Assembly (NCBI RefSeq): GCF_040438885.1
Contig: NZ_CP159218.1
Coordinates: 3,596,001 to 3,660,000, forward strand
Source: Nakamurella sp. A5-74
GTDB lineage: Bacteria > Actinomycetota > Actinomycetes > Mycobacteriales > Nakamurellaceae
DNA length: 64,000 nt
Direction of reading: 5' to 3'
This document shows, one piece after another, positions 1 to 8,000 of the stretch. The position numbers were made by a program, and so were the translations under genes. Within the stretch, counting starts at the first letter, position 1; every line of letters starts with the position of its first letter. Below the pieces are notes generated by a model. It did no database searches. It was not told the origin of the DNA and worked only from the letters and a program-made list of their open reading frames with translations.

Positions 1-262
1 GGATCTCCATCCGTTGACCGGCCAACGCGCCGACACACCCGGGAACGTCGAAGACCAATGTCGCCGCGGTCGACGATTCGGCGATCCGCTCCCGCAGGAC
101 GCCCCGCTGCCAGCGTTTCGCAATCGGTGACCGCGCGCTGTCCGGCACGACGTCCAGTGACCGGTTGGCGCGGTCACTCACCATGCGCGGTGGCCGCGGC
201 ACCGACGACTGCGACACGGACGACTGCGACACCGACGACTGCGACACCGACGACTCAGACAT
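1..262 (-). CDS. FNR-type FAD-binding oxidoreductase, N-terminal part (cut by window edge)
   Basis: From ATG at 262 the frame stays open to base 1, so only the first 87 codons are visible. Residues 71-87 (FDVPGCVGALAGQRMEI) match the first strands of ferredoxin-reductase-like FAD domains. This is the usual partner of small sulfite-oxidase-like proteins, which supports an electron-transfer role. The start overlaps the stop of the molybdopterin gene by 8 bases, suggesting coupling. Residues 3-21 are a three-fold SSVSQ-type repeat encoded by 15-bp DNA repeats. ATG at 184 (residue 27) would omit it and is a possible alternative start. The family call rests on a short segment. Confidence 0.6.
   Translation of the reverse strand, partial: MSESSVSQSSVSQSSVSQSSVPRPPRMVSDRANRSLDVVPDSARSPIAKRWQRGVLRERIAESSTAATLVFDVPGCVGALAGQRMEI
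204..257. repeat. 15-bp tandem repeat in the reductase leader
   Basis: Three full copies and one partial copy of a 15-bp unit (gacgactgcgacacc) lie at 204-218, 219-233, 234-248 and 249-257. They encode a Ser/Val/Gln leader ahead of the FNR domain and run into the stop codon of the upstream gene. The array is in frame, so length changes would be tolerated. Confidence 0.8.
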
Positions 263-851
263 CGGAGTACCGCTGCTCACGCCACGGATCGCCGTAGGCG
301 TGGTAGCCGTTGCGTTCCCAGAATCCCAGCTCGTCCTCGGTCATCAGCCGCAGCTCGGAGACCCACTTCGCCGATTTCCAGAAGTACAGGTGCGGCACCA
401 GCAACCGCGCCGGACCGCCGTGATCCCGGGCCAGCGGCTCGCCGTCGAACTCGGTGGCGATCAAGGCGCGCCCGTCCAGCACGTCGGCCAGGGGCAGGTT
501 GGTGGTGTAACCGCCGTAGCAGTGCGCCATCAGATGTGTTGCGCTGGTGGAGATCCCGGCGAGTACGCGCTCGACGCTGACGCCCCGCCAGCGGGTGTCG
601 AACTTCGACCACGACGTGACGCAGTGGATGTCGACCTGCAGTTCCTCCAGGCCGAGCGCCTGCATGCTCGCCCAGTCGAAGACCGTCCGGTCACCGGTCT
701 CGGTGGTGACGGTCAGTTCCCAGCGCTCGGTGCTGATCCGCGGCGCCGGGCCGACCGTCAGCACGGGGAATCCGGTCTCGAAGTGCTGACCGGGCGGGAG
801 CTTGGCCGAATGGTCGCGTCTGCCGACGAAACCCCGGGTGACGACGGACAT
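255..851 (-). CDS. Sulfite-oxidase-like molybdopterin-dependent oxidoreductase
   Basis: This 198-aa protein is a single oxidoreductase molybdopterin-binding domain of the sulfite oxidase/YedY superfamily. Cys77 in HCVTSWSK is the expected molybdenum-ligating cysteine. The GGPARLLVPHLYFWKSAKWV segment near residues 145-165 is typical of the small actinobacterial members. No Tat signal or heme domain is seen, so it is probably cytoplasmic, with the following FNR-like gene as electron partner. ATG at 851 is chosen over GTG at 857 because AAGGAG lies 5 bases before the ATG. It is 32 bases downstream of the DUF692 gene in the same direction. The substrate is unknown. Confidence 0.82.
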   Translation of the reverse strand: MSVVTRGFVGRRDHSAKLPPGQHFETGFPVLTVGPAPRISTERWELTVTTETGDRTVFDWASMQALGLEELQVDIHCVTSWSKFDTRWRGVSVERVLAGISTSATHLMAHCYGGYTTNLPLADVLDGRALIATEFDGEPLARDHGGPARLLVPHLYFWKSAKWVSELRLMTEDELGFWERNGYHAYGDPWREQRYSDV

Positions 852-883
852 CCGCACTCCTTCATGGCGACCGGCGGTGGCGA

Positions 884-1861
884 TCAGGCCGGCGGGTCCA
901 GCCTAGTCGTGGCTGCCGCACCGACCGCCGTGGTGCTTGCTGCGGTGCCTGCAACTGCGCCCGCCGCGGTGCCTGCTGCGGTGATCCGCGGGTGCCCGGA
1001 GGCTTCGGCGATCGAGTCCAGCTCGGCGAAGATCTCCGCCTGCGGCGGATAGTTGCCGTCGCGCTCCAGCATCACCGCCGGGATCGGCTGACGCGACGTC
1101 AGCACGGTGAGCAGGTCCAGCACCTCCGGCGACACCGGCGCGGTATGGGTGTCGTGGTAGATCCCGTCGTGCTCGTCGCCGCCGGCGATGTGGACGTAGG
1201 CGATCCGCTCCAGTGGGATCTGCTCGAAAAGCGTCGGCGCCGATCCTGCTCGCCCGCCGACGGCATTGCGTGCATTGGCGTGCACGTTCGCGACGTCCAG
1301 CAGCAGCAGGGCGTCGCTGCGCTCGCAGATCTCGGTGATGAACTGGCCCTCCGTGAGCTCGTCGTCCGGCCAGTCGAAGAGCACGGCGATCGGTTCGAGC
1401 GCGACGGGCAGCCCCACGGCGGACCGGAAGGTGGCGACGTTGCGCACCATCACCTCGACGGCATCCCGGGTACGCGGGAGCGGCGTCAGGTGACCCACGT
1501 CCACGCCGCCGGCGCGGACGAACGAGATGTGCTCGCTCACCAGCGGAGCATGCAGCGCAGCTGCGACCGCGGCGAACCTGTCGAGTTGGGCGTGATCGGG
1601 TTCGTCGGCGCTGCCCAGGTTGACCCGGACCCCGTGCGGGACCACCGCGACGCCGGCGGCCCGGAGGCCGATCAGACCGCCCGGGAGCCGGGCGGGATCG
1701 ATCGATTCCGCGATCACCTCACACCAGCGCAGCCCGGGCAGCGAGCGGACCGCGAAGTCGATCTCCGGGCGCCAGCCGATGCCGACCCCGGCGACGGTCC
1801 CCGTGCGCACCACGCCGCTGGTCCCTGTTCCGACGATGCTGTCGGTGCTGTCTTCGCTCAT
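884..1861 (-). CDS. DUF692 / MNIO family enzyme (MbnB/TglH-like)
   Basis: A 325-aa TIM-barrel protein of the DUF692 family, the multinuclear non-heme iron oxidases that modify cysteines in precursor peptides (MbnB, TglH, bufferin enzymes). The metal-ligand motifs appear in order: PHG near 75-77, SEHISF at 109-114, EPIAVLF at 156-162, DVANVHANA at 189-197, YVHIAGG at 222-228 and DTHTAPV at 237-243. Residues 291-325 are an Ala/Thr-rich tail of low complexity. Its start shares one base (TGATG) with the stop of the TIGR04222-like gene, so the two are probably translated as a unit. The substrate is not known. The Cys-Gly tail of the neighbour is the obvious candidate. Confidence 0.88.
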   Translation of the reverse strand: MSEDSTDSIVGTGTSGVVRTGTVAGVGIGWRPEIDFAVRSLPGLRWCEVIAESIDPARLPGGLIGLRAAGVAVVPHGVRVNLGSADEPDHAQLDRFAAVAAALHAPLVSEHISFVRAGGVDVGHLTPLPRTRDAVEVMVRNVATFRSAVGLPVALEPIAVLFDWPDDELTEGQFITEICERSDALLLLDVANVHANARNAVGGRAGSAPTLFEQIPLERIAYVHIAGGDEHDGIYHDTHTAPVSPEVLDLLTVLTSRQPIPAVMLERDGNYPPQAEIFAELDSIAEASGHPRITAAGTAAGAVAGTAASTTAVGAAATTRLDPPA

Positions 1862-2844
1862 CAGCTGCTACCGCATCCGCCGCCGCCGCCGCAACTGCTC
1901 CCGCCGCCGCAGCTGGACGAGCTCCCACAACTCGACACGCTGCCGCAGCCGGAGGACGTGGTGCCGCAGGTCGACGAGTTCCCGGAGTCCACCCAGCCGG
2001 AGGCGCCGCCGGTCGCGGTGGCCCGGCGCCTCGTCCGAGAGGATTTCCGGCCATCGGAGGTGAGCCGCTGGGCGCCGACCGCCTGGGCCAGCACGGGATC
2101 CAGCGCGGTGAGGGCGCCTGACCCGCCGAGTGCCACCGGCACACCGGAGATCCCGGCGACCACCACCTGCGGACCGAACCGGTGATCCGCATCCTCATGG
2201 GAACCCGGATCGATCCTGGCCTGCCGCACTTCGGTGACGAGGGCAGCAGTGACCCGGAGCTGCCGACGGGTCAGCGCGGGACCGACCTTCGGCAGCGCCA
2301 CCAGCAGCACGGCCTGTGCGACGAACAGCCAGAACGTGGGGACACCGGGGTGGTGACCGACCACCGCGTAGCCGGTCCCGACGGCCCAGGTCACCCAGAG
2401 CGCGCCCAGAAGGACCAACAGCAGCGCATGCCGACCCCGACCCAGCACGAGGTTCCGCTCCGCGAGCGCATCCCGCAGACGGACCACAGCGCGCAGCATC
2501 CGACGGTCGGTGAGCAGTCGGGAGCTGTCGACCCTGTCCCGGACGCAGTCCAGCACGGCCGCTTCGAGATCGGTCCGCGCGGCGGCGTCAGGAGCGAGGC
2601 CCAGCCAGCCCAGCGGGCCGGCGACCAGCTGTCCACGGCGGCGCAACTCGCCCACTGCCACCAACAGGGCCCGTTGTGCCCCACCGACCAGGTAGCCGAG
2701 TTCCTCGCCGGTGATCCGGACGGGAACCGTCAGGGCCGGACGTGGCCAGCACCGCACCACCACGGCCAGGACGATCAGCCCTGCCAGCACGATCCCGTAG
2801 ATCACCAGGAATTGAGGTCCGGTCAGGCCCCAGGAGATCCCCAT
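1861..2844 (-). CDS. TIGR04222-type membrane protein with Cys-Gly-rich C-terminal tail
   Basis: A 327-aa protein with an N-terminal membrane helix (about residues 9-31), a soluble central part and two further hydrophobic helices near 135-180. The layout and the DUF692 neighbour fit the actinobacterial TIGR04222 family. Residues 288-327 form a Ser/Gly tail with six cysteines, every one followed by Gly, and no cysteines occur in the preceding 200 residues or so. MNIO enzymes act on such Cys-containing tails in other systems (for example CG in the EGKCG motifs of bufferins). ATG at 2844 is chosen because the protein then begins directly before the first helix and an AACGAT -10-like hexamer lies six bases upstream. 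The longer upstream reading frame looks non-coding. Confidence 0.75.
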   Translation of the reverse strand: MGISWGLTGPQFLVIYGIVLAGLIVLAVVVRCWPRPALTVPVRITGEELGYLVGGAQRALLVAVGELRRRGQLVAGPLGWLGLAPDAAARTDLEAAVLDCVRDRVDSSRLLTDRRMLRAVVRLRDALAERNLVLGRGRHALLLVLLGALWVTWAVGTGYAVVGHHPGVPTFWLFVAQAVLLVALPKVGPALTRRQLRVTAALVTEVRQARIDPGSHEDADHRFGPQVVVAGISGVPVALGGSGALTALDPVLAQAVGAQRLTSDGRKSSRTRRRATATGGASGWVDSGNSSTCGTTSSGCGSVSSCGSSSSCGGGSSCGGGGGCGSS

Positions 2845-5025: not shown

Positions 5026-8000
5026 ACCCCGACCACCGCGGGCTCGGGCTGATCGGCGGCCGGGAAGCGCAGCCGCTTGTGCAGCTCCTGCAGCGGGGCG
5101 ACCCCGATGTTGCTGCGGATCAACGCCTCGATGCCCTGGATGGCGGCGGCCGCACCCGAGATGGTGGTGATGCACGGGATGTCTGCGGCCACCGCGGCGG
5201 TGCGGATCTCGTAGCCGTCGATCCGGGGACCCGAGTTGCCGTACGGAGTGTTGATCACCAGGTCCACCTGCCCGGCCCGGATCCGGTGCACCACCGAGTC
5301 CCCTGCTGCCGGGTCGACAGTGGCCACGCCGGCGATCAGATCCCCTTCGGTGTCGGTGCTCTCGAAGTACTTGCCGACGGTCTCCACCTCCATCCCGTTG
5401 CGGCGCAACATCTCCGCGGTACCCTCGGTCGCCAGGATCTCGAACCCCAGATCCGCGAGCCGCTTCGCCGGGAAGACGATCGAGCGCTTGTCGGCGTTGG
5501 CGACCGAGACGAACACGGTGCCGGCGGTCGGCAGCGAGCCGTAGGAGGCGGTCTGCGACTTGGCGAACGCCGGCCCGAACGCGCTGTCGATGCCCATCAC
5601 CTCACCGGTGGAGCGCATCTCAGGACCGAGCAGCGAATCTACCCCGCGGCCGTCCGGGCGGCGGAACCGGTGGAACTGCATCACGGCCTCCTTCACGGCG
5701 ACCGGGGCGCCCGGCGGGAGCTGTCCCCCGTCTCCGGTGGCCGGCAGCAGCCCTTCGGCGCGCAGCTCCGCGATGCTGCTGCCGGTCATGATCCTGGCGG
5801 CCGCCTTGGCCAGCTGGACGGCGGTCGCCTTCGAGGAGAACGGCACCGTCCTGGACGCCCGCGGGTTCGCCTCGAGCACGTAGAGCGTCTCGCCCTTGAG
5901 GGCGTACTGGACGTTCATCAAGCCCCGCACGCCGATGCCGAGCGCGAGCTTGGTGGTGTGCTCGCGCACCTTGGCGATGTCGCCGCGGCCCAGAGTGATC
6001 GGCGGTAGCACACACGCGGAGTCACCGGAATGCACACCGGCTTCCTCGATGTGTTCCATCACGCCGCCGAGGTAGACCTCGGTGCCGTCGCAGAGCGCAT
6101 CGACGTCGATCTCGATGGCATCGTCCAGGAATCGGTCGACCAGTACCGGCCGGTCGGGGGCGATCTCGGTGGCCCGGTCGATGTAGTCCGACAGCGACTG
6201 CTCGTCGTAGACGATCTCCATCCCACGACCGCCGAGCACGAACGACGGCCGCACCAGGACCGGGTAGCCGATCCGCGCGGCGGCGTCCCGTGCACCCTCG
6301 AAGGAGATCGCCGTGCCGAACGCGGGGGCCGGAAGCTGTTGCTGCGTCAGCAGATCGCCGAACAGCTTGCGATCCTCGGCCAGGTCGATGGCCTCCGGCT
6401 GGGTGCCCAGGATGGGCACCCCGGAGGCCTTCAGCTCGGCGGCGAGCTTCAGCGGCGTCTGCCCGCCGAGGGTGACGATCACCCCGGCGACGGTGCCGGA
6501 GCGCTGCTCCGAGGCCACCACCTCGAGCACGTCCTCGATCGTCAGGGGTTCGAAGTAGAGCCGGTCGGAGGTGTCGTAGTCGGTGGACACCGTCTCCGGG
6601 TTGCAGTTGACCATCACGGTCTCGAAACCGGCATCCCGCAACGACAGTGCCGCGTGCACGCAGGAGTAGTCGAACTCGATGCCCTGGCCGATCCGGTTCG
6701 GCCCGGACCCCAGGATGATCACCTTCGGCCGCTCGGTCTGCGGAGCGACCTCCGACTCGGCGAGCGGGTCGATCTCGTACGCCGAGTAGTGGTAGGGCGT
6801 CGTCGCCTCGAACTCCGCGGCGCAGGTGTCGACGGTGAAGAAGACAGGGTGCACGCCCAGTTCGGTGCGCAGCGCGCGGATCGCCGCCTCGGCTCCCAGC
6901 GCAGCGTCTCCTGCCTCGGCGCGCAGCTGCGCGAGATCGGCATCGGACAGGCCGTACCGCTTGGCCCTGCGCAGCAGATCCGCGCCGAGTGAGTCGGCAG
7001 CGGCGACCTCGTCGGCAATCGAGGTGACCAGCGCGATCTGGTCCAGGAACCAGGGATCGATGTCGGTCGCCTCATGGATCGCCTCCACCGAAATGCCGGC
7101 CCGGATCGCCCCGATCACCCGGTACCAGCGACCGTCCTGCGGTTGCCGCAGCGCCTCGATCACCTCGGCCCGGTCCTCGTCCGGCCCGACCGCAGCAGCC
7201 GCCAGCAGATAGCCACTTGCCTTCGTCTCCATGGACCGCAGGGCTTTTCCGAACGCTTCAGCGAACGACCGGCCGAACGACATGGCCTCCCCCACCGACT
7301 TCATCGTGGTGGTGAGCACCGGGTCGGCGCCCGGGAACTTCTCGAACGCGAACCGCGGGATCTTCACCACCACGTAGTCGAGCGCCGGTTCGAAGGCGGC
7401 AGAGGTCTTCCTCGGGGGGGACTCGGGGGGTGTCCCCCCGAGCGCCGACTTCCTCGGGGGGGACTCGGGGGGTGTCCCCCCGAGCGCCGACTCCCTCGGG
7501 GGGGACTCGGGGGGTGTCCCCCCGAGCGTCGACTTCCTCGGGGGGGACTCGGGGGGTGTCCCCCCGAGCGTCGACTTCCTCGGGGGGGACTCGGGGGGTG
7601 TCCCCCCGAGCGTTGTGATGTCGTTGGCGATCTCGTCGAGGGTGTAGCCGATGGCGAGCTTCGCGGCGATCTTCGCGATCGGGAAACCGGTGGCCTTCGA
7701 CGCCAGCGCCGAGCTGCGGGAGACCCGCGGGTTCATCTCGATGACGATCATCCGGCCGGAATCCGGATCGATCGCGAACTGGATGTTGCAGCCGCCGGTG
7801 GCGACGCCGACCGCCCGCAGGATCTGCAGGCCCAGGTCGCGCATCCGCTGGTACTCGCGATCGGTGAGCGTCATCGCCGGGGCGACGGTCACCGAATCGC
7901 CGGTGTGCACGCCCATCGGATCGATGTTCTCGATCGAGCAGACCACCACGGCGTTGTCGGCCGAGTCGCGCATCAGTTCCAGCTCGAACTCCTTCCAGCC

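Follow-up and report, generated by a model that had tools for sequence, protein, structure and literature searches.

Can an MNIO enzyme act on the cysteine-rich tail of an intact membrane protein, and on which side of the membrane would that tail lie? The question is raised by two genes at one end of the stretch of Nakamurella sp. A5-74 DNA analyzed here (hereafter the window: 64,000 nucleotides, positions 3,596,001 to 3,660,000 of contig NZ_CP159218.1). One encodes a TIGR04222-domain membrane protein of 327 amino acids, a putative MNIO substrate (1861..2844, minus strand; NCBIfam TIGR04222, 57 bits against a cut-off of 43, E 2.1e-15), and the other a DUF692/MNIO enzyme of 325 amino acids (884..1861, minus strand; PF05114, E 4.6e-67). 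An earlier note on this DNA had described the two genes as overlapping by one base; they do share base 1861, because the TIGR04222 stop codon TGA (1863-1861) runs into the ATG of the MNIO gene (1861-1859). The note had also proposed a membrane-anchored Cys-Gly array coupled to the MNIO, with the tail as its likely substrate. Our preferred explanation, to which we give a probability of roughly 0.55, is that these genes belong to the TIGR04222-MNIO-PME type of modification module, which has three parts. The observation is real, and the locus is a member of a kind already published: Antoine et al. 2025 (PMC12452194) proposed that subsets of the TIGR04222 proteins serve as substrates of MNIOs, and a TIGR04222 peptide is mentioned in a Pseudonocardia cluster (PMC5183585). 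What is new here is the displaced gene of the third partner, together with a likely correction of the topology.

The tail extends from its first cysteine to the stop codon (1861..1968, minus strand). By direct reading its six cysteines, at residues 293, 300, 306, 312, 318, and 324 (spacing 7-6-6-6-6), are each followed by glycine, as the earlier note had stated, and all lie within the last 35 residues of the protein; Cys 32 and Cys 100 are outside the tail. When the last 45 residues were shuffled 20,000 times, 0.075% of the shuffles had six CG pairs. The codons of the tail are mixed (TGC/TGT for cysteine; GGC/GGG/GGA/GGT for glycine; AGC/AGT/TCG/TCC for serine), so the tail is no fresh DNA microsatellite. 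No Pfam family was found in the protein at E 0.01, DUF2282 included, and its sequence contains no EGKCG motif. The composition of such tails was analyzed in the window protein and 47 MNIO-linked TIGR04222 proteins with at least 3 tail cysteines; since these 48 proteins were picked for their cysteine content, the resulting statistics describe the tails and are no test of the link to the MNIO. The 232 tail cysteines are followed by Gly in 179 cases, Ser in 42, Ala in 10, and Asp in 1, that is, by a small residue in 231/232. The 179 CG pairs compare with 120 expected from 1,000 shuffles (standard deviation 6.5, maximum 141), and CC pairs are absent where 24 were expected. The commonest spacing between cysteines is again 6, and the end of the tail is conserved in the alignment of relatives, 28/48 tails having a C-terminal CGG. 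These parts, their conservation, and the bias towards small residues after cysteine are directly visible in the sequences.

The MNIO match spans positions 1-260 of the 263 in the PF05114 profile. A set of 35 positions is conserved at 97% or more across 66 relatives, and 32 of them are kept in this enzyme, among them H76, H111, E156, D189, N192, H224, D237, H239, and E266. Some of these conserved His, Asp, Glu, and Asn positions presumably bind iron. Beyond the PF05114 match the protein has a C-terminal, low-complexity extension of about 39 residues rich in Ala, Thr, and Gly (window 884-1003), part of which is underlain by a 12-base repeat. We also take SCO6045 to be an MNIO, and draw nothing from that. 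An RNA-seq table in PMC4991794 gives SCO6045 the value 3.01, which likewise plays no part in what follows.

Are Cys tails and MNIO genes associated across genomes? We searched 246 genomes of the class (own genome included) and 61 relatives, together 300 genomes. TIGR04222 matches were found in 84 and MNIO matches in 51 genomes of the class sample, and in 23 and 22 of the relatives, respectively; because at most 11 candidates per genome were scored in the class search, its TIGR04222 numbers may be minima. A named-genome collection queried with the MNIO gave two loci only. At E 0.001, a single TIGR04222 match and a single MNIO match were obtained in the own genome, which is one contig of 4.75 Mb. 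From the places over the cut-off we obtained 104 TIGR04222 proteins, leaving out second pieces of one frame, the window protein, and six regions of weaker match (L135, L137-L140, L142). A tail was defined as at least 3 Cys in the last 70 residues and a protein was called linked when an MNIO lay within 2.5 kb. Start codons were picked by rule or by eye. Our home-made TIGR04222 and MNIO models were trained partly on loci lying on the opposite strand, and the MNIO model was applied again elsewhere, with the top match at each locus being taken; curated places underlie the final counts. This co-occurrence analysis, which the earlier note had suggested, gave a tail in 47/62 linked and 8/42 unlinked proteins (Fisher p 1e-8, a value that overstates the independence of genomes that are related). 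Among the unlinked Cys-tailed proteins, one (G079) has an MNIO match by the home-made model 35 nucleotides away at the contig end, one (G267:C203) stops at its contig end, and one (G183) is in our judgement a read-through frame. Together with the rule on the residue after cysteine, this association supports the earlier proposal that the tail is a likely substrate.

Three kinds of protein encoded next to MNIO genes carry such a tail. The first is the three-transmembrane TIGR04222 protein as in the window. The second consists of TIGR04222 proteins in which no segment passes the transmembrane (TM) threshold (in G093, G069, G079, and G267); in G093 and G069, which are MNIO-linked and Cys-tailed, the open frames allow at most 7 extra residues upstream, and the other two lie at contig ends. 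The third is a protein of 83-104 residues with one TM segment, found at five MNIO loci (L211, L214, L216, L217, and L226), none of which gives a match to NCBIfam TIGR04222 even at E 10. The tail gene comes first in L211, L214, and L216, and the PME domain described below lies between the MNIO and the tail gene in L217 and L226. The L226 protein comes from the window's own genus. Within that genus, TIGR04222 matches over the cut-off were found in 4 and MNIO matches in 5 of 17 genomes (own genome included), the fifth MNIO genome, G250, having the one-TM tail form. Small proteins after MNIO genes are called 'adjamnio-V' in PMC12452194, with no role assigned. Because the tail is what recurs across the three carriers, it is the tail that is likely to be the substrate of the MNIO, and it is from these combined observations that we infer this role.

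The third part of the module would be a partner protein with a domain that we first found in Micromonospora pattaloongensis (L206), in the gene that follows its MNIO gene. A model grown from this locus, for which the loci of the later count also served as training material, detected the domain within 600 nucleotides downstream of the MNIO domain, or fused to it, at 66/75 MNIO loci (G198:C116, G268:C13, and L207 were left out); calls of 'fused' versus 'separate' rest on stop-to-stop frames and are unreliable. The nine loci lacking it are the window, six loci with low-scoring MNIOs (49-185 bits), G232, and G237, and a Cys tail was found nearby at 0/8 of these other than the window. In the own genome, a profile built without any sequence of that genome gave a single match (E 9.6e-30) at 3592960-3593268, in an open reading frame (genome 3592846-3593439, minus strand, as the MNIO) that lies 2.6 kb outside the left end of the window and 3.4 kb from the MNIO gene. 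The partner is thus not lost from the genome. The earlier observation that no DUF2063-type partner is seen holds within the window and does not extend beyond it, where this PME-type-2-like gene lies.

The domain fits, without proving it, the PME-type 2 of PMC12452194, which that paper describes from HHpred and models. The own-genome protein belongs to no Pfam family, and 1/30 PME-like members touched Pfam DUF2063 (E 0.022). Comparison by hhalign with one DUF2063 sequence gave P 0.26, and with nine DUF2063 sequences a collinear alignment with P 0.0037, six scrambled controls giving 0.16 to 0.86. A search of the profile against PDB sequences returned unrelated rows and no DUF2063 structure. According to PMC12452194, at least 10% of TIGR04222 clusters have a PME-type-2 gene and many have no partner; in our sample, the PME-like domain stands beside far more loci than that 'at least 10%'.

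A Cys tail was found beside 42/47 MNIO+PME loci outside one genus, g23 (Streptomyces-like, at a guess), and beside 6/19 loci within it; the L206 tail was entered by hand in this count, the tail filter having missed it and three others. Several results weigh against the module. Homologues that lack tail cysteines and are still paired with DUF692, which the earlier note had named as evidence against its proposal, exist in part: among the 62 MNIO-linked TIGR04222 proteins, 15 have no more than 2 tail Cys, and 12 of these 15 come from g23. In this genus, 13/19 MNIO+PME loci have no Cys tail nearby, and at 10 of these 13 a tail-less TIGR04222 gene follows the MNIO. Outside g23, no adjacent Cys tail was found at 5/47 loci: in G181 a tail-less TIGR04222 gene precedes the MNIO, and no Cys tail appeared in the other frames of the 320 bases examined; in G100, G111:C1, and G038 a Cys-tailed protein is encoded elsewhere in the genome; and G267:C50 is a contig end. 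An MNIO with PME is thus not always beside a local Cys tail. To these results must be added that the partner gene of the own genome is displaced from the MNIO by three genes, the molybdopterin and FNR genes considered below and an MFS gene on the opposite strand (MFS_1, E 1.2e-48). Furthermore, no gene recurs in a census of 99 neighbours (of 202 rough gene calls near 34 loci; the 99 come from 24 loci), the commonest families being TetR_N in 5 and Ammonium_transp in 4, so nothing seen outside the module points to a metal.

The loci of g23 also bear on a different explanation, in which the tail cysteines are plain thiols that bind metal or react with oxidants, the MNIO-PME pair has another target, and the co-location is historical. 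That g23 retains MNIO and PME beside a tail-less TIGR04222 gene, and that Cys tails lie far from the MNIO in some genomes, is in its favour; the pairing at 42/47 loci outside g23, the three protein frames that carry the tail beside MNIO genes, and the strong rule on the residue following cysteine all speak against it, and we regard it as quite unlikely. In four g23 genomes without an adjacent tail, a distant TIGR04222 paralogue has a single tail Cys and is a possible substrate in trans. Such distant g23 paralogues (L111, L128, L132, and L136) have no TM segment under the threshold, a Gly-rich tail, and one Cys. Separately, the g23 MNIO loci with a tail-less TIGR04222 gene (L081, L082, L084, L085, and similar ones) lie near what appear to be haem-synthesis genes (hemQ- and hemY-like).

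On which side of the membrane would the enzyme meet the tail? A large loop domain lies between the first and second TM segments (residues 38-139; 2428..2733, minus strand) and is predicted to be cytosolic from the charge distribution. Lys and Arg are more frequent around this loop and after TM3 than in the N-terminus and the TM2-TM3 hairpin in 52/52 proteins, 18 of 70 (the window protein among them) having been skipped because the simple TM finder, whose hydrophobicity scale was entered by hand, saw no three segments in them. In the 34 linked Cys-tailed proteins, the mean number of Lys+Arg is 0.24 in the N-terminus and 0.76 in the hairpin, and per 17 residues 3.0 and 3.0 at the two ends of loop 1 and 3.8 after TM3. 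For the window protein, whose N-terminus resembles a membrane segment, borders set by eye give 19 Lys+Arg in loop 1 and 4 after TM3, against none in the N-terminus or the hairpin. All 5 one-TM carriers have 0-1 Lys/Arg before the TM segment and 6-8 in the 17 residues after it, with our own choice of start codons. The charge distribution and the existence of soluble family members suggest that the large domain is in the cytosol, and probably the tail as well.

This placement is opposite to the published one. PMC12452194 reads AlphaFold models as showing the large domain and the tail in the periplasm, and proposes that the tail is moved across the membrane. In this alternative the tail, still an MNIO substrate, would work as an extracytoplasmic metal buffer like the bufferins, the precursors of which have Sec signals. 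A fourth hydrophobic segment before the tail (227-245 in the window protein), which in several relatives is marginal and scores like the weaker TM segments, would lend itself to this arrangement: if it spans the membrane, the tail alone is outside. Its counterpart is also present in the TM-less members of the TIGR04222 family, and the charge counts of the three-TM proteins and of the one-TM carriers put the large domain, the stretch after TM3, and the region behind the single TM segment inside. The whole-length AlphaFold model of the window protein has a mean predicted local distance difference test score (pLDDT) of 55, with residues 183-327 below 50, and a Foldseek search with it found nothing; a model this poor does not decide on the side of the tail. 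Weighing these points, we consider an exported tail unlikely and are fairly confident that the tail faces the cytosol, in which case the published periplasmic topology likely needs correction.

The large loop domain itself was modelled well in isolation (pLDDT 88, predicted template-modelling score 0.79). Structural comparison with VIA-align placed GOLPH3 at the top with a middling Z of 4.8 over 96 residues, the next row having 2.3, and a profile comparison of TIGR04222 with 26 sequences of the GPP34 family (PF05719), chosen for the test after the fold result, gave a probability of 77.5% (hhalign, P 1.9e-5); the controls (MNIO, PME, and eight scrambled profiles) did not exceed 0.3%. A winged-helix profile of 30 HTH_20 sequences also matched TIGR04222 (probability 47%, P 2e-4, 55 columns) and matched GPP34 itself (P 0.0017), so the GPP34 signal may partly reflect a helix-turn-helix pattern of a general kind. 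In a Foldseek search of the loop domain against the PDB the best E was 2.0, and that hit was not GOLPH3; its weak rows were mostly winged-helix regulators (DtxR/IdeR, MntR, IscR, and MarR-type) and methyl-coenzyme M reductase chains. Weak rows of Crp/FNR and MarR type (E 0.03) also came up when the profile was compared with PDB sequences, and no winged-helix rows appeared in the VIA list. A permissive Pfam scan of 25 TIGR04222 proteins found GPP34 in 1/25 (E 0.01) and HTH_20 in 1/25 (4.4e-5), and in the same alignment E1-E2_ATPase in one (3.6e-6). DUF2207_C was weakly matched in 13/25 (best E 0.0015), perhaps through the Gly/Ser tail or the TM segments. We considered a kinship with GPP34 rather probable before the winged-helix control and now give it slightly less than an even chance. 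A possibly shared fold of the large loop domain is the point of likeness with the bacterial GOLPH3/GPP34 proteins, of which the Streptomyces protein SCO4440 was studied in PMC12402492; the inserted TM hairpin and the Cys tail of the window protein are absent from PF05719. More broadly, we tentatively suggest that MNIO-modified Cys-Gly arrays on the cytosolic side are carried on a GOLPH3- or winged-helix-like scaffold, a one-helix anchor, or a soluble form. In the mainly open-access literature, as far as its listings go, we recognized neither a placement of the tail in the cytosol nor a link between TIGR04222 and GOLPH3.

Two further explanations are addressed by the surroundings of the locus. 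First, the tail could be the core of a ribosomally synthesized and post-translationally modified peptide, modified and then cut off as a free peptide. Its repeat-like make-up and the conserved CGG end are in keeping with this; we consider it improbable, because no protease was found among the 25 commonest of 111 Pfam families in the 99 neighbouring genes and no cut site is evident before the tail in the TIGR04222 alignment. Second, the earlier note had taken the genes downstream as possible electron partners. The next gene downstream encodes an Oxidored_molyb protein (255..857, minus strand; PF00174, E 4.1e-35) and is followed by the 5' part of a gene for an FNR-type reductase (1..280, minus strand; FAD_binding_6 and NAD_binding_1 on the full gene), the rest of which lies outside the window. 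Their position and strand agree with such a role, but no match to either protein (E 1e-5) was found at 74 other MNIO loci, some of them shortened by contig ends, and homologues of the molybdopterin protein, which occur in 39/41 genomes, lie away from the MNIO at the places listed. We judged the two genes to be incidental to the module, and a redox partnership with the MNIO to be highly improbable.

Two tandem repeats were also observed in the window. One, of 15 bases in 4 copies (196-255), lies within the FNR frame, close to the start, and its translation would be a Ser-rich repeat. The other, of 42 bases in 4.9 copies with 98% match (7407-7613), is in frame inside carB, whose product thereby gains a 14-residue unit about five times over; every unit holds the near-palindrome CTCGGGGGGACACCCCCCGAG, which occurs five times there and once elsewhere in the genome.

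How, then, might the module work? In our preferred explanation, the TIGR04222 protein would be held in the membrane by three TM anchors that leave its N-terminus outside; the large domain and the Cys-Gly tail would lie in the cytosol, where the MNIO, aided by the displaced PME-type-2-like partner, would oxidize some or all of the six tail cysteines. The product would most likely be a heterocycle derived from Cys and of thiooxazole or oxazolone/thioamide type, and the result a membrane-tethered array of soft ligands at the inner membrane face, most likely a trap for metal, perhaps copper. The exact modification, metal binding, and the identity of the metal are guesses by analogy. The window shares with the TIGR04222-MNIO clusters of PMC12452194, as far as they are described there, a membrane protein, mostly of Actinomycetota, whose Cys tail is rich in Ser and Gly and whose gene adjoins an MNIO gene, the absence of a DUF2063 gene, and the PME-type-2 partner present in part of them; it differs in that the partner gene is displaced by 3.4 kb and in that the large domain and tail are read here as cytosolic and there as periplasmic. 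With the bufferins and captophorins (PMC12668002) it shares a Cys-Gly array, served by an MNIO and a partner, with a small residue after Cys; those precursors are smaller and their partners are DUF2063 (PME-type 1) proteins, whereas here an integral membrane protein carries the array. The same paper describes FonBC, an MNIO that works with a DUF2063 partner and forms 5-thiooxazoles in EGKCG repeats; a mass loss of 8 Da, about 4 Da per Cys, is given there for a two-repeat peptide. When the position after Cys was varied singly, only a change from Gly to Ala still allowed modification; motifs carrying a charged residue there were unprocessed, an NVCGG motif was modified once, and a Cys-Tyr motif was accepted (PMC12668002). 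The small residue that follows nearly every tail cysteine here (231/232) agrees with this preference. Because the partner here is not PME-type 1, this chemistry transfers to the tail by analogy only.

The MNIO substrates described in the cited texts are mostly small exported precursors. If our explanation is true, intact membrane proteins would also be targets of MNIO enzymes, with a product that stays inside the cell, and such whole-protein products would lie on the side of the membrane opposite to the bufferins and to the published placing. The presence of three carrier forms beside the same enzyme pair points to the tail as the substrate, and the one-TM forms, with their 83-104 residues, are short test proteins. 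The partner domain, common at most loci, shows which third gene experiments should include; in Nakamurella sp. A5-74 this gene lies outside the obvious cluster.

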